Notes under the pieces: generated by a model
Told to the model about the DNA's origin: nothing
Seen by the model: the letters and a program-made list of their open reading frames with translations, nothing else
Databases searched by the model: none
Program-made: the position numbers and the translations under genes
Shown here: positions 13,752-21,963 of the stretch, piece by piece
Position numbering within the stretch: the stretch's first letter is position 1
How the letters are laid out: each line of letters begins with the position of its first letter
NCBI GenBank assembly: GCA_021733795.1
Contig: JAIPKB010000007.1
Coordinates: 1-60,719, forward strand
DNA from: Akkermansiaceae bacterium
GTDB taxonomy: Bacteria; Verrucomicrobiota; Verrucomicrobiia; Verrucomicrobiales; Akkermansiaceae
Direction of reading: 5' to 3'
DNA: 60,719 nt

Positions 13752-14435
13752 ATGAGCACCTCCCCAGGAAAGATCCGGATGATTTTGGCGCTGGCCCTCT
13801 GCGCCACGGCAGGCGTTATCCTGCTCGCCAAGGGTGCGGGTGAGTCGGCGGCCGCCCCGGCACCTGATGATGCGAAGCTACCGGACGTCGCCCGCCCGTC
13901 CGCCAGCCAGCCGGTGACCGGCCTGGTGGGGGGCACCCACCTGGACAAGACTCCGCCGCGTGAGACGAAGGGCCTGGATCTGGTGAAAATGGGCTGGACC
14001 TACAATTGCATGGAGTGTCACAAGCTGTTCCCCGCCAAGTGGCACTATGACCGACCCATGAACGAGCACAAGGATCTCAAGCTCGATCACGGCAACAACC
14101 GCTTCTGCCTCAACTGCCACCATCCCACCAACCGCAACGCGTTCGTCGATTACGATGGCGCCGAGATCGCCCAGGCCAACGTGGTGGAACTCTGCGCGAA
14201 ATGCCACGGCACGACCTACCGCGATTGGAAAGCGGGCGTCCACGGCCGCCAGAACGGTTTCTGGGACGCCGACAAGGGCGAGAAAACCAAACTGAAATGC
14301 ATCCAGTGCCACGACCCCCACAGCCCCAAGTTCAAGGCGATGGCACCGCTCGCGCCGTTGCGTTACCCACCCCGCGCCGCCCATCCCCCGGGCGCTGACC
14401 ATTCCGAACCCGCCGGTCATACCGACGAACCCTGA
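13752..14435 (+). CDS. Exported tetraheme c-type cytochrome (quinol-module electron carrier)
   Basis: 227 residues. An N-terminal hydrophobic segment (residues 9-26) is an export signal or uncleaved anchor. Four CxxCH heme sites follow: CMECH (86), CLNCH (119), CAKCH (148) and CIQCH (183). The C-terminal tail is Pro/His/Ala rich. It is the first gene of the nitrate-reduction operon, 6 bp before the ferredoxin-type subunit. By position it plays the part of the multiheme cytochrome found with NrfC/NrfD-like pairs, as in NrfBCD or Qrc-type complexes, passing electrons from the membrane quinol site to periplasmic reductases. It is not NapC/NrfH-like: it lacks that family's short anchor plus close-set heme layout. 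Confidence 0.8.
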   Translation: MSTSPGKIRMILALALCATAGVILLAKGAGESAAAPAPDDAKLPDVARPSASQPVTGLVGGTHLDKTPPRETKGLDLVKMGWTYNCMECHKLFPAKWHYDRPMNEHKDLKLDHGNNRFCLNCHHPTNRNAFVDYDGAEIAQANVVELCAKCHGTTYRDWKAGVHGRQNGFWDADKGEKTKLKCIQCHDPHSPKFKAMAPLAPLRYPPRAAHPPGADHSEPAGHTDEP

Positions 14436-14441
14436 CGTCCG

Positions 14442-15416
14442 ATGAACCACGACCCGCAAGACACCGTCAGCCCCCGCACCATCGAGCAGGTTTACAAACC
14501 CATCGACCGTCGCACCTTTCTCAAGGGCTCGGCGGTGGCGATGGTCGGCGTGGCCGGCCTGATGGCCGCGCTCAAGCCACTGCTCGCGCTCGAATCCGGC
14601 GAAACCACCCTCGACGACCTGCTGCAAAAACACTACCGCGAGCTGAAACCCGAGGATTTGAAGAAAATCATGGCCGCGCTGGAGGCCAAAACGGAGAAAC
14701 AATACGGCGTCCGCCCGACCATCCGCGATCTCAAGCCGATCCCTGGCGTGGAGTTCGGCTACGCGCTGAACCTGACCCGCTGCATCGGCTGCCGCAAGTG
14801 CGCCCACGCCTGCCTCAAGGAAAACAACCAGTCGCGCGATGACGCCCAGGACATCGAAATGTCCTACATCCGCGTGTTGGAGATGAACAAGGGCGCGATC
14901 AATCTGGAGACCTCCTCGGTTTACTACGATCCGGAAACCGTGCCGCAAAAGGGCAAATATTATATGCCGGCCCAGTGCCACCAATGCCGCCAATCGCCCT
15001 GCACCAAGGTGTGCCCGGTGCAGGCCACCTGGCAGGAACCGGACGGTGTGGTGGTGGTGGACTACAACTGGTGCATCGGCTGCCGCTACTGCATGGCCGC
15101 CTGCCCCTACGACGCCCGCCGTTTCAACTATAAGAAACCGAGTCTCACCAAGGACCAGATCAATCCCAATCAAAGTTACCTCAGCAACCGCATCCGGCCC
15201 AAGGGCGTGGTGGAGAAGTGCACCTTCTGCCTGCACCGCACCCGCGATGGCAAATACCCGGCCTGCCTCGAGGTCTGCCCCACCGGCGCAAGGGTCTTCG
15301 GCAACCTGCTCGACCCCGACAGCGAGATCAACTACATTCTCAACAACAAGCGCGTCTATGTCCTCAAGGAAGAAGTCGGGACCCTGCCGCGCTTTTACTA
15401 CTTCTTCGATAAATGA
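14442..15416 (+). CDS. Tat-exported 4x[4Fe-4S] ferredoxin subunit, NrfC-like
   Basis: 324 residues. The Tat signal is DRRTFLKG at residues 22-29, followed by a hydrophobic stretch. Four iron-sulfur cluster motifs are complete: Cys114/117/120/124, Cys179/182/187/191, Cys211/214/217/221 and Cys260/263/275/279, with one Cys shared between clusters in the usual ferredoxin manner. The architecture matches periplasmic electron-transfer subunits of the NrfC/HybA/DmsB group. It overlaps the next gene, the NrfD-type membrane subunit, by four bases (ATGA), which implies coupled translation and a stable complex. It would relay electrons from menaquinol at the NrfD site to the tetraheme cytochrome encoded just upstream. 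Confidence 0.9.
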   Translation: MNHDPQDTVSPRTIEQVYKPIDRRTFLKGSAVAMVGVAGLMAALKPLLALESGETTLDDLLQKHYRELKPEDLKKIMAALEAKTEKQYGVRPTIRDLKPIPGVEFGYALNLTRCIGCRKCAHACLKENNQSRDDAQDIEMSYIRVLEMNKGAINLETSSVYYDPETVPQKGKYYMPAQCHQCRQSPCTKVCPVQATWQEPDGVVVVDYNWCIGCRYCMAACPYDARRFNYKKPSLTKDQINPNQSYLSNRIRPKGVVEKCTFCLHRTRDGKYPACLEVCPTGARVFGNLLDPDSEINYILNNKRVYVLKEEVGTLPRFYYFFDK

Positions 15417-16639
15417 GGGACTACTTCACATTCCTGTTCCGCGTCTGGCGGCTCTCGTTCCAGGGCAGTTGGAAATTCTACGCCTGGATGACGCTGCTGT
15501 CCGTGGTCTCACTCATCGGCCTCAACGCCTGGGCGCACCAGATCGTCGACGGCCTCCAAACCACCGGCATGACCAACCAGGTCAGTTGGGGCGCCTACAT
15601 CGCCAATTTCACCTTCCTGGTCGGCGTGGCGGCGGCGGCGGTGATGCTCGTCATCCCGGCCTATATTTATAAGAAGGAACACATGCACGAGGTGGTGCTG
15701 TTCGGCGAGTTGCTGGCGATCGCGGTCATCGTCATGTGCCTGCTGTTCGTCACCGTGGACCTCGGGCACCCGGAGCGTTTCCATCACATGATTCCGCCGT
15801 TCGGGGTGTTCAACTTTCCGGGTTCGATCCTGTCGTGGGACGTGATCGTGCTCAATGGCTACCTGTTGTTGAACCTGCACATCGCCGGCTATCTGCTCTA
15901 CTGCCGCTACCGCCACCGCGAGCCGACCCGGATGTTCTACATCCCGTTCGTGTTCCTCTCCATCGCCTGGGCGGTGAGCATCCATACCGTGACGGCCTTC
16001 CTTTACGTCGGATTGGCCGGCCGCAGCTACTGGCACAATCCGCTGGTGCCGTCGCGCTTCCTGGCATCGGCCTTCGTGGCGGGCCCGGCGCTGATGATCC
16101 TCACCTTTCAGATCGTGCGCAAGGTGACCCACTATTTCATCGGCGACAAGCCGATCTTCACCCTGCGCATGATCATGACCGTGGCGATGATCATCAACAT
16201 GTTCCTGCTCGGCTGCGAGTTGTTCACCGAGTTTTACTCGCCCACCCAGCATGCGGCCGCCGCACACTATCTGTATTTCGGGCTGCACGGCCACAGCGGA
16301 CTCGTCCCGTGGATCTGGACGGCCATCGCGCTCAACACCATCGGCCTGGGGCTGCTGATCTCACCGTTCAGCCGCCGCATCGTGGGCCTCAACCTCGCCT
16401 GCGGCACCTGCTTCATCGGCATCTGGACCGAGAAGGGCATGGGCCTGATCATCCCCGGCTTCGTGCCCTCGCCGCTCGGCCAGGTGGTCGAGTACCTCCC
16501 CACCGTCAACGAAACCCTGGTCTGCCTCGGCATCTGGTCGTTTGGCGCGCTGCTGTTCTCGTGGATGCTGCATGTGGCCATCCCGATCATGAACGGCAGC
16601 CTGCGTGAGAACCCGGAATTCGCCACTTCCCAAGATTAA
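15413..16639 (+). CDS. NrfD-type integral membrane quinol dehydrogenase subunit
   Basis: 408 residues with about ten hydrophobic spans, the size and pattern of NrfD/PsrC proteins. Conserved-looking phrases include TFLVGVAAAAVMLVIPAY, VDLGHPERF in the loop before a helix, and FPGSILSWDVIVLNGYLLLN. This subunit has no cofactor of its own but holds the quinol site. It should oxidise menaquinol and hand electrons to the ferredoxin subunit, whose gene it overlaps by four bases. The octaheme cytochrome gene follows after 53 bp. A menA gene 13 kb away is consistent with a menaquinone pool. This module appears to replace NapC or NapGH, neither of which is in the window. Confidence 0.9.
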   Translation: MRDYFTFLFRVWRLSFQGSWKFYAWMTLLSVVSLIGLNAWAHQIVDGLQTTGMTNQVSWGAYIANFTFLVGVAAAAVMLVIPAYIYKKEHMHEVVLFGELLAIAVIVMCLLFVTVDLGHPERFHHMIPPFGVFNFPGSILSWDVIVLNGYLLLNLHIAGYLLYCRYRHREPTRMFYIPFVFLSIAWAVSIHTVTAFLYVGLAGRSYWHNPLVPSRFLASAFVAGPALMILTFQIVRKVTHYFIGDKPIFTLRMIMTVAMIINMFLLGCELFTEFYSPTQHAAAAHYLYFGLHGHSGLVPWIWTAIALNTIGLGLLISPFSRRIVGLNLACGTCFIGIWTEKGMGLIIPGFVPSPLGQVVEYLPTVNETLVCLGIWSFGALLFSWMLHVAIPIMNGSLRENPEFATSQD

Positions 16640-16692
16640 CCCCCACCATCTCCCAACCCCACCCGATCTCCAGAACCTAACCACAACATTCC

Positions 16693-18135
16693 ATGAAAAC
16701 ACGGATCATCAACCTAACGCCGTTCATCGCGCTGCTAACGGTGGCGCCCCTCGCCCAGGCCGGGTTCACCCTGGCGGAAATGTCGCCGCAAAGCAAAGCC
16801 TGCGTCGCCTGCCACAAGAAGGAGAGCGCGGCGGTGTACGAGCAGTGGGGCTCCTCCAAACATTTCCGCGCCAACGTCGGCTGCTTCGAGTGCCACACCG
16901 CCAACGAAACCGACAAGGACGCCTACGAGCACTACGGCCAGTTCATCGCCACCATCGTCTCGCCCAAGGACTGCGCCCGCTGCCATGAGCACGAGGTGCA
17001 GGAGTTCAACGACTCCCACCACGCCAAGGCCGCACGCATCCTCGGCTCGCTCGACAACACCCTTGCGGAAGTCGTCGAGGGCAACAACGGCTTCAAGACC
17101 GATGGCTTCCCCCAGGGCGTGAGCGCGGCGGCGGTCAACGGCTGCTGGCAGTGCCACGGCTCGGAAGTCAAGGTGCTGGAAACCGGCCGCCTCGATGCCG
17201 CCACCTGGCCTAACACCGGCATCGGCCGCATCAACCCCGACGGCAGCGAAGGCTCCTGCACCGCCTGCCACTCGCGCCACTCGTTCAGCGCCGCCCAGGC
17301 CCGCACCCCGGACACCTGCGGCAAATGCCACATGGGGCCGGACCACCCGCAGATCGAAATCTACAACGAGTCGAAACACGGCATCGCCTACCGCGCCAAC
17401 ATCGACAAGATGGCGCTCGACAACGAGAAGTGGATTGTCGGCGAGGACTACAGCGCCGCGCCCACCTGCGCCACCTGCCACATGAGCGCCACCAAGGACC
17501 AGCCGGTCACCCACGACGTGGGCATGCGGATTTCCTGGAACAACCGCCCCGCCATCTCGGTGCGACCTGAGGTTTCCGACGCCAAAATGGGCCTGCCCGG
17601 CAAGGATGTGCCGTGGGAAAAACGCCGCGCCAACATGGAAAACGTCTGCATCACCTGCCACAACATCAACATGGTGGGCGCCTTCTACAAACAGTATGAC
17701 GCCCTGATCGACCTCTACCACGACAAGTTCGCCAAGCCCGGCCTCAGCTTGATGGAGGCCGCCGCGCCCCTGCTCAGCAAACCCGGGTTCAGCAACAAGA
17801 TCGACTTCACCTGGTTCGAACTCTGGCATCACGAAGGCCGCCGCGCCCGCCACGGAGCGAGCATGATGGGACCGGACTACACCCACTGGCACGGCACCTA
17901 TGAAGTGGCCAGGAATTTCTACTCGGAGTTCGTCCCCGAACTGCGCGAACTCGTCGAACACAACCTCAAGTCCGAGGACCCGGTGAAAAAGGAAGCCGCC
18001 GAGAAACTCCACAAGCTCCTCGATGAAACGCTCAACAGCGACAACCACAAGTGGTATCTCAACAAGATGGACCCCGCCGAAAAGGCACGTCGTGAAAACG
18101 CGGTGAAGGAGTTCCAGCAACGCTATTCCAAATAA
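16693..18135 (+). CDS. Octaheme c-type cytochrome, hydroxylamine oxidoreductase (HAO) family
   Basis: 480 residues with a Sec signal peptide (cleavage near AQAGF). Eight CxxCH motifs start at Cys37, 64, 94, 151, 189, 209, 259 and 319, and there is no CxxCK. The count, order and the long helical C-terminus fit the HAO family rather than NrfA (five hemes, CxxCK) or tetrathionate reductase. In HAO the fourth heme is catalytic; here that is CWQCH at 151. Classic HAO needs a Tyr cross-linked to it; Tyr396, Tyr403 and Tyr410 in the C-terminal region are candidates, but the assignment needs an alignment. HAO relatives lacking the cross-link in some Epsilonproteobacteria are thought to reduce nitrite or hydroxylamine. 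Lying between the NrfD-type gene and napD, it probably handles the nitrite made by NapA. Confidence 0.88.
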   Translation: MKTRIINLTPFIALLTVAPLAQAGFTLAEMSPQSKACVACHKKESAAVYEQWGSSKHFRANVGCFECHTANETDKDAYEHYGQFIATIVSPKDCARCHEHEVQEFNDSHHAKAARILGSLDNTLAEVVEGNNGFKTDGFPQGVSAAAVNGCWQCHGSEVKVLETGRLDAATWPNTGIGRINPDGSEGSCTACHSRHSFSAAQARTPDTCGKCHMGPDHPQIEIYNESKHGIAYRANIDKMALDNEKWIVGEDYSAAPTCATCHMSATKDQPVTHDVGMRISWNNRPAISVRPEVSDAKMGLPGKDVPWEKRRANMENVCITCHNINMVGAFYKQYDALIDLYHDKFAKPGLSLMEAAAPLLSKPGFSNKIDFTWFELWHHEGRRARHGASMMGPDYTHWHGTYEVARNFYSEFVPELRELVEHNLKSEDPVKKEAAEKLHKLLDETLNSDNHKWYLNKMDPAEKARRENAVKEFQQRYSK

Positions 18136-18150
18136 CCGGACCCGGACCCC

Positions 18151-18420
18151 ATGCCCATCTCCTCCTACGTCGTTCGTTGCCTGCCGGCGGATCAAGCCGC
18201 CGTGCGCGAGGAACTCCTCGCCCTGCCCGGCGTCGAGCTGGGCGAGGCCACGGAAAAGGGCTTCCCGGTGGTCACGGACACCCCCACCACCCGCGCCGCC
18301 ACCGAGCTGGGCGAGCGCTTGCAGGACCTCCCCGGCGTTCAATCCGCCGTGCTCGTCTATCACAACTTCGAGGACGTGGCCGATGACCTGGCCGCAGCCG
18401 CCACCCCTCCCAAACCTTGA
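18151..18420 (+). CDS. napD: NapD-type chaperone for NapA maturation
   Basis: 89 residues, typical for NapD. It starts MPISSYVVRCLP and has the ferredoxin-like alternation of strands and helices: SYVVRCLPADQAAVREELLALPGVELGEATEKGFPVV, with the VLVYHNFED strand at the end. NapD proteins bind the twin-arginine signal of NapA and hold back export until the molybdenum cofactor is inserted. Here it directly precedes napA, with 23 bp to the ATG used for napA; an in-frame TTG would overlap its stop. It acts in the cytoplasm. Confidence 0.85.
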   Translation: MPISSYVVRCLPADQAAVREELLALPGVELGEATEKGFPVVTDTPTTRAATELGERLQDLPGVQSAVLVYHNFEDVADDLAAAATPPKP

Positions 18421-18443
18421 ACATCCAACGATCCAGTCTTCCC

Positions 18444-20804
18444 ATGCCTCTCGCCAACCGCCGCCTTTTCATCAAACAAGCCGCCCTGTCCTTCGCCTCC
18501 TGCGTGATGGCCGGCAGCCTGCCGCGCAACCTGACCGCCGCCACCACCGTGGAAGGCGAGGACGGCCTGACCTGGCAAAAGGCACCCTGCCGCTTTTGCG
18601 GCACCGGCTGCGGGGTCATGGTCGGCGTCAAGGATGGCCGCGTCGTCGCCGTCCAGGGCGACCTCGAAAATCCGGTCAACAAGGGCCTGCTCTGCGCCAA
18701 GGGTTACCACGCCGGCGTCGCCCTCTATGGCAAGGACCGCCTGACAACCCCGTTGATCCGCAGGGATGGCAAACTCCAACCGGTTTCCTGGGAGGCGGCG
18801 ATCGACACCATCGCCAGCGAAATCCACGCCCGCCCCGCCACCTTCGGCTTCTACGGCTCCGGCCAGTGGACCGTGATGGAGGGCTTCACCGCCATGAAGT
18901 TCATGAAGGGCGGCCTCGGCAACAACCATGTGGACCCGAACGCCCGCCTCTGCATGGCCAGCGCCGTGGTCGGCATGATCACCACCTACGGCGTGGACGA
19001 ACCGAGCGGCTGCTACGATGACTTCGACCTCGCGGACACCGTGATCCTCTGGGGCAACAACCCGGCGGAAATGCATCCGGTCCTCTGGTCCCGGATCATC
19101 GACCGCCGCGCCAAGGGCCAGCAGGTGGAAGTCATCGACATGGCCACCCGCCGCACCCGCAGCACCGAGCAGTCCGACCACTACATCGAGTTCACCCCCC
19201 AGGGCGATCTGGCGATCGCCAACGGGATCTGCCACCTGCTGGTGAAATCCGGCAAATACGACAAGGAATGGGTCGCCAAACACTGCAATTTCCGCCAAGG
19301 CGCCGACGCCGACGGCGAGGCGATGACCTTCGAGGAATATGCGAAGTGGCTGGAAACCTACACCCCGGAATATGTCCAACAGGTCGCCGGCGTGCGCCCG
19401 AAACAGCTCCAGTTGTTAGCCGACCGTTTCGCCGATCCCGATCGCAAGGTCGTTTCGCTGTGGTGCATGGGGATGAACCAGCACACCCGCGGCACCTGGA
19501 TCAACAACCTGGTTTACAACGTCCACTTCCTCAGCGGCAAGTTCGGCAAGCCCGGCAGCACGGCATTCTCGCTCACCGGCCAGCCCAGCGCCTGCGGCAC
19601 CTGCCGCGAAGTCGGCACGCTCGGCCACGCGCTGCCCGGCGGCCGCATCGTCGCCAATCCCGAGCACCGGCAACAGTGCGAGGAACTCTGGAACGTCCCG
19701 GCGGGCCGCATCAACTCGAAACCCGGTCATCACGCCGTGGCCTTGTTCGAGGCCTTGCAAAAGGGCGACATGACCGGCTGCTGGGTCCAGGTCACCAATC
19801 CCGCCCAGACGATGCCCAACCTCAACGCCATGACCAGCAAGCTGCGGGATCGCTTCCTGGTCGTCTCCGACATCTATCCGACCGTTACCACCGACCTCGC
19901 CACCGTGGTGCTGCCATCCGCGATGTGGGTGGAGAAAAACGGGGTCTTCGGCAACAGCGAACGCCGCACCCAGCAGTGGTTCAAGATGGTCAATCCGCCG
20001 GGCGAGGCACGCGACGACGTCTGGCAGGTCATCGCCGTGGCCCACAAGCTTTTTGAAATGGGCCACCCCGGCATGAAGAACAAGGACGGCGAGTTCCTCT
20101 TCACCTTCAAGGACCAGGACGGCAAGCCGCTCGAGATTTGGAAATGGGAGGTCTTCAACGCCCACAATGTGGACGAGATGTTATATAATGAATACCGGCC
20201 GTTCACCATGATGAAGCACAAGGACGTGGCTCCCTATCAGGAATTGGTCAATAGCCGCGGCATGCGCTGGCCGGTGGTCAAAAACAGCGACGGCATCTGG
20301 CAGGAAACCCCGCGCCGCTTCGTCGAGGGCGAGGATCCCTACGTCAAACCCGGCACCGCAGTCGATTTCTACTGGGGCAAGCTCAAGGACCACAAGGCGC
20401 TGATCTGGGCCCGTCCCTACGAGCCGCCGCCCGAGGTGCCGGATGACAAATACCCGTTCTGGCTCTGCACCGGACGCGTGCTCGAGCACTGGCACAGCGG
20501 CACCATGACCCGCCGCGTGCCGCAATTGCACCGCGCGATGCCCAAAGCCTACGTCGAATTGAATCCCGAGGATGCCGCCAAGATGAACATCTCCACCGGC
20601 GACCCCGTGAAAATCACCTCCCGCCGGGGCACCCTGACCTTGCCCGCCTGGATCAACGGCCGCTCCACGCCGGCCAAGGGTGCCGTCTTCGTGCCGTTCT
20701 TCGCCGAGGAGTCCCTCATCAACCTGGTCACGCTCGAAGCCTTCTGTCCGCTCTCCAAACAGCCGGACTACAAGAAATGCGCCGTGACCATCACCAAAGT
20801 CTGA
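18444..20804 (+). CDS. napA: Periplasmic nitrate reductase catalytic subunit
   Basis: 786 residues from ATG 18444, chosen so that the Tat signal NRRLFIKQAALSFASC sits at the N-terminus; TTG 18417 is possible but less likely. The [4Fe-4S] motif is CRFCGTGCG plus a distant Cys (Cys49, 52, 56 and 84). The expected molybdenum ligand is Cys170 in ARLCMASAVVG. Further molybdopterin guanine dinucleotide blocks (GNNPAEMHPVLW, TGQPSACGTCREVGTLGHALPGGR, CTGRVLEHWHSGTMTRRVPQL) follow in the usual order of the DMSO reductase superfamily and are NapA-like. It reduces nitrate to nitrite in the periplasm, fed by NapB encoded 10 bp downstream. The length is near the usual 720-830. Confidence 0.95.
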   Translation: MPLANRRLFIKQAALSFASCVMAGSLPRNLTAATTVEGEDGLTWQKAPCRFCGTGCGVMVGVKDGRVVAVQGDLENPVNKGLLCAKGYHAGVALYGKDRLTTPLIRRDGKLQPVSWEAAIDTIASEIHARPATFGFYGSGQWTVMEGFTAMKFMKGGLGNNHVDPNARLCMASAVVGMITTYGVDEPSGCYDDFDLADTVILWGNNPAEMHPVLWSRIIDRRAKGQQVEVIDMATRRTRSTEQSDHYIEFTPQGDLAIANGICHLLVKSGKYDKEWVAKHCNFRQGADADGEAMTFEEYAKWLETYTPEYVQQVAGVRPKQLQLLADRFADPDRKVVSLWCMGMNQHTRGTWINNLVYNVHFLSGKFGKPGSTAFSLTGQPSACGTCREVGTLGHALPGGRIVANPEHRQQCEELWNVPAGRINSKPGHHAVALFEALQKGDMTGCWVQVTNPAQTMPNLNAMTSKLRDRFLVVSDIYPTVTTDLATVVLPSAMWVEKNGVFGNSERRTQQWFKMVNPPGEARDDVWQVIAVAHKLFEMGHPGMKNKDGEFLFTFKDQDGKPLEIWKWEVFNAHNVDEMLYNEYRPFTMMKHKDVAPYQELVNSRGMRWPVVKNSDGIWQETPRRFVEGEDPYVKPGTAVDFYWGKLKDHKALIWARPYEPPPEVPDDKYPFWLCTGRVLEHWHSGTMTRRVPQLHRAMPKAYVELNPEDAAKMNISTGDPVKITSRRGTLTLPAWINGRSTPAKGAVFVPFFAEESLINLVTLEAFCPLSKQPDYKKCAVTITKV

Positions 20805-20814
20805 CGGAACCGCC

Positions 20815-21438
20815 ATGAAACCGTTCCACAACCTCGCCGTGCCCATCCTGCTGGGTGGTGCCAGCCTATGGTGGCTCAGCGCCGCTGACGAACCGGCCGC
20901 AGCGGTCACCACCCCCCCGGCCTACAACGAACACCGCTCGTTCGCCCAGCCCGTGCGCCCCGATCCGGTGGGCACCAAAATCAGTGCCAACCGCGCCTTC
21001 TGGGGCGCGCCGCCGCCGATGCCTCACAGTTTTCCCGAAGCCCGCGACGACGGCCGCCTGTGCCTCACCTGCCACGCCCGTCAAAACCGCATCGAGAAAC
21101 GCCAGCAGGCGATCGTGCCGGTGCCCCACGCGGAGTTCTCCCAATGCCAGCAATGCCACGTCCCCAAGGGCGATGGCAGTTCGTTCTTCCGCGCCTCCGG
21201 GTTTGTGGGTCTCGATTTCCCCGGCAAGGGAACCCGCGCCCATCCCTACGCGCCGCCGACCATCCCGCACAAAACCTTCATGCGCGACAACTGCCTGTCC
21301 TGCCACGGCCCCGCCGGCAAACAGAAGATCGCCTCGCCCCACCCCTTCCGCAGCCAGTGCCAGCAATGCCACGTCTCGGACGCCACCAAGAACTACGACC
21401 GACCCGTACCGTGGAAAACCCTCGACGGCAAACTCTAA
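20815..21438 (+). CDS. napB: NapB-like cytochrome with duplicated diheme unit (tetraheme)
   Basis: 207 residues, exported (signal-like segment at residues 5-23). NapB normally carries two hemes. This protein has four CxxCH sites: CLTCH (83), CQQCH (111), CLSCH (160) and CQQCH (182). Each half repeats the same layout, with PPxxPH ahead of the first heme and a CQQCHV motif at the second, so the second pair looks like an internal duplication. The first half (HAEFSQCQQCHVP) is the more standard NapB. It is placed directly after napA and should be the electron donor to NapA. The extra hemes may let it bridge to the octaheme cytochrome or the tetraheme carrier. Heme ligand His residues were not mapped one by one. 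Confidence 0.82.
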   Translation: MKPFHNLAVPILLGGASLWWLSAADEPAAAVTTPPAYNEHRSFAQPVRPDPVGTKISANRAFWGAPPPMPHSFPEARDDGRLCLTCHARQNRIEKRQQAIVPVPHAEFSQCQQCHVPKGDGSSFFRASGFVGLDFPGKGTRAHPYAPPTIPHKTFMRDNCLSCHGPAGKQKIASPHPFRSQCQQCHVSDATKNYDRPVPWKTLDGKL

Positions 21439-21447
21439 CCCAATCTG

Positions 21448-21963
21448 ATGGACTCCGAGTTGAGGAACGCGGCTGATATCCGCAAACTGTCCCCCGCGGA
21501 GCTGGAGGCGCTCGGCCAGCACAGCCTGCGCGGGCACTTGCAGGCGCAGGCCGAGGTGGCGCACCTGAAGCACGGCCCCCTAACCGCCGATACCCTCGCC
21601 GCCTTGCTCCAGGACCCGGAATGCCTGCGCCATCCCGTACGCCTGGTGTTCGAGTTCGGCCAAATGGCAATGCATCAGTTCGCCCATCCGGACATCGACT
21701 GGCGCAACCCGGACCAGGACGGCCGCGTCCTCTATCTCCGCCCGCTGCTCAGACAGAGCCCGCACCTCCTGCCGCTGGCGGTTGCATATATGATTCCGCT
21801 CATCAACTATGGCGACGTCGTCACCGACGGGCACTGCCTGCTCTACGGCGCCACCTTGCTGGGAATGACCGAAGACGAATACTACAACGACCTCTGCGCC
21901 CTAGCAGACAACCTCGGCGCCGAAATCCGGAGTGGAGGGTATGGCATCGAGGGCCAGGGCTAG
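21448..21963 (+). CDS. Hypothetical protein at the end of the nap operon
   Basis: 171 residues, starting 9 bp after napB and so almost surely co-transcribed. There is no signal peptide, so it is probably cytoplasmic. The sequence is helix-rich, with conserved-looking stretches such as RLVFEFGQMAMHQFAHPDID and a C-terminal LLGMTEDEYYNDLCALADNLG. No family is recognised. By position it may help NapA, cofactor or cytochrome maturation, but nothing in the sequence shows it. An imperfect hairpin without a T tract (21995-22020) follows. Confidence 0.7.
   Translation: MDSELRNAADIRKLSPAELEALGQHSLRGHLQAQAEVAHLKHGPLTADTLAALLQDPECLRHPVRLVFEFGQMAMHQFAHPDIDWRNPDQDGRVLYLRPLLRQSPHLLPLAVAYMIPLINYGDVVTDGHCLLYGATLLGMTEDEYYNDLCALADNLGAEIRSGGYGIEGQG

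Follow-up and report, generated by a model that had tools for sequence, protein, structure and literature searches.

Genomic context and gene content

The window analysed here, the whole 60,719-nucleotide stretch of contig JAIPKB010000007.1 (assembly GCA_021733795.1) from an Akkermansiaceae bacterium, holds eight forward-strand genes for a tetraheme cytochrome (TetH), an iron-sulfur (Fe-S) protein, an NrfD-superfamily membrane protein, an octaheme cytochrome c of the HAO family, NapD, NapA, a four-heme NapB and a protein named X171 (Table 1). We propose, with a probability of roughly 0.58, that they encode a periplasmic respiratory chain from nitrate to ammonium, in which a DsrOP/NrfCD-type module would supply electrons, by way of the tetraheme cytochrome, to a reductive-type HAO octaheme, and NapA would supply the nitrite. 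The genes are separated by gaps of 6, -4, 53, 15, -4, 10 and 9 bases, in order, and both flanking genes lie on the opposite strand, a tight spacing and isolation compatible with a single operon. Number, packing, place and strand agree with an earlier note on this DNA, as does the four-base overlap of the Fe-S and NrfD genes; a second four-base overlap joins NapD to NapA. The Pfam and NCBIfam libraries found no napC, napG, napH, nrfA or nrfH among the eight genes, again as that note had stated, and no DsrM or DsrK.

The genome is a draft metagenome-assembled genome (MAG) of 6.07 Mb in 318 contigs, 86% complete and 2.6% contaminated, with the operon on its contig C244. Loci compared with it are given L numbers.

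Table 1. The eight operon genes, with positions in the window and identifying features.
Product	Position	Strand	Features
TetH, tetraheme c-type cytochrome	13752..14435	+	4 CxxCH, N-terminal hydrophobic segment
Fe-S protein, DsrO/NrfC type	14442..15416	+	Four [4Fe-4S] motifs, twin-arginine signal
NrfD-superfamily membrane protein, DsrP type	15413..16639	+	PF03916, NF045798
HAO-family octaheme cytochrome c, predicted ammonium-forming nitrite reductase	16693..18135	+	8 CxxCH, PF13447
NapD, NapA chaperone	18151..18420	+	PF03927, 62.8 bits
NapA, periplasmic nitrate reductase	18417..20804	+	TTG start, twin-arginine signal, N-terminal Cys cluster, NARLC motif
Double NapB, four hemes	20815..21438	+	4 CxxCH, two alike halves
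X171, no named family	21448..21963	+	No hydrophobic N-terminal segment; model like IrrE-type zincins

The octaheme cytochrome

A PF13447 domain (84 bits) and an HAO fold place the octaheme in the HAO superfamily, where the earlier note had put it. Its heme motifs are all CxxCH, and the CxxCK active-site motif that marks NrfA and ONR is absent from all eight. The earlier note had also raised the question of the Tyr that cross-links to heme in oxidative HAO and HDH; in our alignment Trp399 stands in its place, and the pocket is of the reductive type. This Tyr is present in nine of the 106 aligned rows, one of the nine being an HDH above its cut-off; the 106 include repeats (L103, L104, L105 and L113 are L023, L057, L060 and L071, and L084 looks like a copy of L010) and two weakly matching multihemes of other kinds, L094 and L097. 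Trp at the Tyr site with Met eight residues before it is the mark of epsilonHao (PMC8940962), and both residues (W399 and M391) are found here and in 79 of 79 relatives. Residue counts and trees omit L019 (381-1988), from a Planctomycetota MAG, where the octaheme gene is broken across two frames by decay or assembly error.

The octaheme also retains the pocket Asp-His pair, with His218 as the pocket His, and places Arg285 in the heme pocket at the position of Tyr334 of Nitrosomonas HAO. By sequence and by the fold of its model, the nearest solved relative is the archaeal IhOCC of Ignicoccus hospitalis (4qo5), which has Val where the octaheme clade has His218. In the MccA sulfite reductase one heme is bound to a long motif in place of CxxCH; such a motif is not found here, and fold and heme motifs together rule out an MccA-type enzyme. 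From its pocket residues the octaheme is likely of the reductive HAO kind, which is also predicted for most HAO-like proteins outside anammox (PMC12758564).

Named nearest relatives are mostly Verrucomicrobiota. Among 387 Verrucomicrobiota genomes, this one included, the octaheme profile matched in 19, above 900 bits in three and at 290-490 bits in four more, a sample too thin to judge co-occurrence across the phylum.

The quinol module

TetH has its hydrophobic segment at residues 8-26 and the four hemes counted in the earlier note. A Pfam scan found no NapC/NrfH domain (PF03264) in it, and the Protein Data Bank gave only weak matches to designed proteins, which we take as compositional noise. 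Four CxxCH motifs recur in 59 of 60 TetH open reading frames (ORFs) of relatives, a count that leaves out the present operon and the NapC-type L088 and L089; the exception is a 60 aa piece at L009.

The Fe-S protein scores 187.4 bits on DsrO (NF045797, cut-off 200) and 110.4 on NrfC (TIGR03149, cut-off 377.6). The membrane subunit, in which a simple scan finds eight hydrophobic segments, scores 124 bits on PF03916, 409.6 on DsrP (NF045798, cut-off 350) and 24.4 on NrfD (cut-off 347.6). The module was described in the earlier note as NrfCD-like; by these scores, far below the NrfC and NrfD equivalog cut-offs, a true NrfCD identity is ruled out, and both subunits are nearer to DsrO and DsrP. The membrane protein is predicted to be the quinol-oxidising subunit, and TetH likely carries electrons from the Fe-S protein to the octaheme.

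Contig C123 of the same genome (L119:1746-6444) carries a second NrfD-type cluster, with genes for a six-heme protein with a NapC-type domain, a three-heme protein, a DsrO-like Fe-S protein and NrfD. The six-heme protein, of 518 aa, is ruled out as a stand-alone NapC (TIGR03153, 51 of 134).

Conservation of the unit among relatives

Relatives were collected by a search of genome contigs with the octaheme, and the best 80 of 446 were analysed. In 59 of the 80 loci (counting L009) the octaheme has tetraheme, Fe-S and NrfD genes on its own strand and no more than 6 kb away; they precede it in 54 and follow it in five (L039, L046, L049, L060, L072). Since the first four genes stay together in this many relatives, chance grouping is ruled out. 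Eleven of the 21 loci without the full unit have less than 3.5 kb of upstream sequence, and several of these still show NrfD. Among the loci that lack the unit with more sequence at hand (L023, L027, L028, L031, L036, L041, L059, L073, L074, L077), nine of ten are labelled Planctomycetota or Phycisphaerae. The cassette itself occurs in records labelled Verrucomicrobiota, Planctomycetota (including Scalindua), Hydrogenedentota, Myxococcota, Bdellovibrionota, Latescibacterota and Thermodesulfobacteriota, the last three each represented by one MAG contig only.

NapA lies within 9 kb of the octaheme in only 15 of the 80 loci, on the same strand in 12; it was counted at 1300 bits or as two contig-cut hits (L008, L051), and lower NapA-like hits were not counted (L020, L030, L033, L044, L054 and L075, of which L033 has a NapA truncated by the contig end and, with it, a four-heme NapB). 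Set against the 59 loci with the tetraheme-FeS-NrfD unit, this makes nap the variable part. The conserved unit is the quinol module with the octaheme, often accompanied by X171, and nap joins it in a minority. The hybrid centred on nap that the earlier note described is not borne out by this comparison, and Nap as the core of the system is ruled out.

The octaheme tree and its partners

The octaheme tree was built with IQ-TREE in quick mode, with SH-aLRT support only, from 49 rows, 47 hand-picked from the alignment plus L125 and L126. Eleven rows are unlabelled, the partners of L087-L089 were assigned only afterwards, and the tree holds no Campylobacterota sequence; L094-L101 were left out, and no use was made of L112, L117 and L118, which are Scalindua places that are short, broken or duplicated. 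The 30 NrfD-linked rows need one change on this tree (support 100), compared with a shuffled mean of 7.4, and sit in a clade of 33 whose other three members are L028 and L036, which have no unit, and L053, which is contig-cut. On this topology the NrfD partner would have been acquired once.

At five of eight deeper octaheme loci (L087, L088, L089, L125, L126) a NapC/NrfH-type tetraheme gene stands directly upstream, which is the HaoC arrangement. PF03264 scored 80-123 bits in the four upstream genes scanned, and that of L087 was assigned by similarity to L125's (94 bits). No other multiheme gene lies within 13-14 kb around the octaheme at L086, L114 and L115. The deep branching order is unsure because of long branches at the root (L116, L110, L090, L111). 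L125 is from Desulfobaculum and L126 from Desulfosarcina, and both octaheme genes are plasmid-borne; at L126:6329-12689, on a Desulfosarcina ovata plasmid typed mobilizable, the NapC-type and octaheme pair lies near norR and a nitric oxide reductase gene.

A broader history can be offered only tentatively, and we regard it as rather doubtful as a whole. An epsilonHao-like octaheme that had gained the pocket Arg285, in the role of the catalytic Arg of NrfA, may have swapped its NapC/NrfH-type dehydrogenase, once only, for a possibly proton-translocating DsrP/NrfD module and then spread to at least seven phyla, often with the pseudo-zincin X171; in the present operon a doubled NapB would share the electrons with nitrate reductase.

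Nap proteins, X171 and flanking genes

NapA is identified by the equivalog model NF010055 (930.9 bits, cut-off 904), together with its twin-arginine export signal and Cys motifs; it falls just below the cut-off of TIGR01706 (910.1 against 930.55), and its nearest solved structure is the NapA of 3ml1 (762 bits). The NapB-like protein (PF03892, 30.5 bits) departs from diheme NapB. It has four CxxCH motifs instead of two and is an internal duplication: its two halves align with a score of 85, compared with 47 at most after shuffling. The same duplication was found in 13 of 14 relatives, scored only in ORFs of at least 150 bits; among lower-scoring ORFs (25-29 bits), L030 and L044 have two CxxCH and L054 and L075 have four. 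A narrow phrase search of the literature, with broader matches seen only as titles, found no tetraheme NapB in print. At L013:8297-9791 napD and a napB ORF with three CxxCH follow the octaheme, and no NapA was found between them.

X171 lies downstream of the octaheme in 40 of the 80 loci. Its predicted model has an IrrE-like zincin fold without a conserved HExxH, and Foldseek alone gave no match at E up to 0.001. Sequence searches returned 530 homologs at E up to 0.001, and the best 120 of these have no Pfam domain and are called 'hypothetical' where named. A place for X171 as an ordinary M78 peptidase (PF06114) did not come out clearly. Because X171 follows the octaheme at loci where no nap was found, a role as NapA chaperone is disfavoured, and we infer that it may be a cytoplasmic partner that helps to assemble or regulate the octaheme module, not Nap.

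The gene before the operon encodes an outer-membrane-type protein (Alginate_exp, 24.7 bits, just below the cut-off of 25.2), and the gene after it was read by eye as a phosphate acetyltransferase.

A proposed chain from nitrate to ammonium

In the proposed chain, the DsrP-like membrane subunit would oxidise quinol and pass electrons to the Fe-S protein, from there to the tetraheme cytochrome and on to the octaheme, which would reduce nitrite to ammonium. NapA would make that nitrite from nitrate, and the same quinol module would feed NapA through the four-heme NapB. That one quinol module is packed with both reductases, as the earlier note had it, is borne out by gene order and spacing. The chain is otherwise read from heme and Fe-S motifs, export signals, protein families, Trp399 and the Asp-His pair, and the pairing of the unit with one octaheme clade; from these we infer the direction of electrons from quinol to nitrite, ammonium rather than nitric oxide (NO) or hydroxylamine as the main product, and the supply of NapA by the shared module. 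A working analogy would be NrfA, which is paired either with NrfH or with NrfBCD (PMC12285233): by the same token an epsilonHao-like enzyme could use tetraheme-FeS-NrfD instead of HaoC.

The earlier note had proposed a route without NrfA, and in this MAG no NrfA, NirS or NirK was found. NirS (scanned for in this genome only) gave no hit, the best NirK match reached 32 of 296 bits, and the single PF02335 match, at 22 bits or 29.7 when the whole protein is scanned (cut-off 24.1), covers only 45 of 438 positions and is not NrfA. It belongs to a 764 aa protein on contig C1 (L120:3263-5554) with eight CxxCH motifs and C-terminal TPR repeats, and partial matches of this sort are common in relatives. 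The MAG has a single PF13447 protein. A NapA-type protein, judged by eye from split hits, occurs somewhere in about half of the relatives' genomes; the TIGR01706 cut-off is passed in one match by only four of 51 genomes.

Evidence against the chain and alternative functions

A number of observations weigh against the proposed chain. Gene absences in this MAG are weak evidence, since it is only 86% complete. The genomes of the first 50 of the 80 loci were examined for NrfA and NirK. PF02335 matched in 31 of these, above its low cut-off of 24.1 in 23; counting only matches of at least 290 bits (the rest are partial, below 34 bits), NrfA is present in seven (L004, L005, L008, L027, L029, L030, L052). 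NirK is above its cut-off in five (L006, L007, L010, L024, L044), just below it in L004 (294.3) and at 226.9 in L053; with the last two counted as NirK, 37 of 50 genomes have neither enzyme. The five nearest loci of the same order all lie in genomes with NrfA (L004, L005, L008) or NirK (L006, L007), so the octaheme may do something else there, and the proposal of a route without NrfA fails in these closest relatives; L008 is cut off inside NapA. Further, the unit is lacking in 10 of the 64 loci that have at least 3.5 kb upstream, the octaheme is in none of 24 other genomes of the same genus, and Arg285 is shared by the partnerless L086, L114 and L115 and hence not exclusive to octahemes with an NrfD partner. 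In the closest published case found, the authors tentatively tie their HaoA-like locus to nitrite reduction or to sulfur compounds, and their strains did not grow with sulfur when nitrite replaced nitrate (PMC5276818).

The octaheme could instead stop at NO, like anammox HAOr, which lacks the Tyr and forms NO (PMC12758564), and so serve a denitrification-type or NO-based route. The NirK-bearing carrier genomes fit such a route, and NO or ammonium is suggested as product of Phycisphaerae octahemes (PMC11266412). We consider it unlikely: the Scalindua paralog L110, which we call HAOr-like from its residues, clusters with the Tyr-bearing sequences by a long branch and carries His in place of the Met391 of the octaheme clade. 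Only two COX1-family genes turned up in the MAG, a cbb3 oxidase and a divergent one, and neither was identified as an NO reductase. A somewhat smaller chance attaches to hydroxylamine as the product, with cytoplasmic Hcp finishing the reduction to ammonium, the reverse hydroxylamine:ubiquinone redox module (reverse-HURM) proposed for Nautilia (PMC3701875) and Deferribacter (PMC6896113). An Hcp-family fragment (248 bits) does occur on contig C217, but it shows no linkage to the operon and could equally protect against NO. EpsilonHao proteins, moreover, reportedly make ammonium directly.

It is similarly improbable that the module serves chiefly to remove toxic nitrite, NO or hydroxylamine while another enzyme is the respiratory nitrite reductase. 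The patchy occurrence in the genus and the NrfA or NirK of the five nearest relatives would suit this, but genes so tightly packed with those of a quinol dehydrogenase and napDAB point to respiration, and no NrfA, NirS or NirK was found in this MAG. Least probable is a role of the DsrOP-like module and octaheme on sulfur compounds such as sulfite or tetrathionate, with nap a chance neighbour; to its credit are DsrP and DsrO as best NCBIfam models, the infrequency of NapA near the octaheme, and MccACD, where an NrfD-type subunit (PMC8076601) goes with an enzyme that the 4rkm title calls octaheme.

Implications and comparison with known systems

Dissimilatory nitrate reduction to ammonium is usually scored by counting nrfA. 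If the clade does ammonify nitrite through an NrfD-type module, many genomes of Planctomycetota, Verrucomicrobiota and other groups would hold an uncounted nitrogen-retaining route, which might also couple energy at a point where a NapC/NrfH-type partner is not expected to do so. Current names hide the system: close relatives of the octaheme are labelled 'formate-dependent nitrite reductase c552' or 'hydroxylamine dehydrogenase' in their sources, and the membrane subunit passes the DsrP model.

Among known systems, epsilonHao/HaoCA of Campylobacterota is alike in its HAO-family octaheme with the Trp and Met marks and no cross-link Tyr, found in nitrate ammonifiers that use Nap (PMC3701875, PMC8940962); its quinol dehydrogenase is a NapC/NrfH-type tetraheme (CycB/HaoC), whereas here tetraheme-FeS-NrfD takes that place. 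NrfABCD of Gammaproteobacteria (PMC12285233) likewise supplies its multiheme nitrite reductase through NrfD, a four-cluster Fe-S protein and a small multiheme carrier; it differs in that NrfA is a pentaheme with CxxCK and NrfB carries five hemes, and the NrfC and NrfD scores here are far too low. The module resembles the small c-type cytochrome, DsrO and DsrP of DsrMKJOP, with four hemes instead of three, no DsrM or DsrK in the operon, and an octaheme as partner. MccACD also joins an octaheme to Fe-S and NrfD-type subunits. A review of NrfD-type complexes names NrfABCD, DsrMKJOP and MccACD, while its text contains neither the word octaheme nor the word hydroxylamine (PMC8076601).

Other Nap-plus-Hao ammonifiers have been described (PMC3701875, PMC5317091, PMC6896113), and HAO-like octahemes of Phycisphaerae, one of them in the cultured planctomycete Poriferisphaera corsica, may replace NirK or NirS (PMC11266412). 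NrfD clusters of Planctomycetota are described, in the passages concerned, without an HAO-type enzyme (PMC10732223), and NrfD operons have been interpreted as sulfur-related (PMC11896075). The closest case to the octaheme with tetraheme-FeS-NrfD that our literature search found is a 2017 paper on Thermosulfurimonas dismutans and Dissulfuribacter thermophilus, which without NrfA turned 10.00 mM nitrate into 9.85 and 9.91 mM ammonium, and which carry an 11-gene cluster of napMADGH and a four-gene locus for HaoA-like, NrfD, 4Fe-4S and cytochrome proteins (PMC5276818). As here, Nap lies beside HaoA-like, NrfD, Fe-S and cytochrome genes; the differences are that their nap genes lack napB and stand two genes away, that the gene order is not the same, and that X171 is unmentioned in the text on that cluster. 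Nap-hao clusters, and one cluster of nap, HaoA-like and NrfD genes, are thus already in print, and the interest of the present system lies in its breadth, the putative single switch of partner, the pocket Arg, the doubled NapB and the family-less partner X171.

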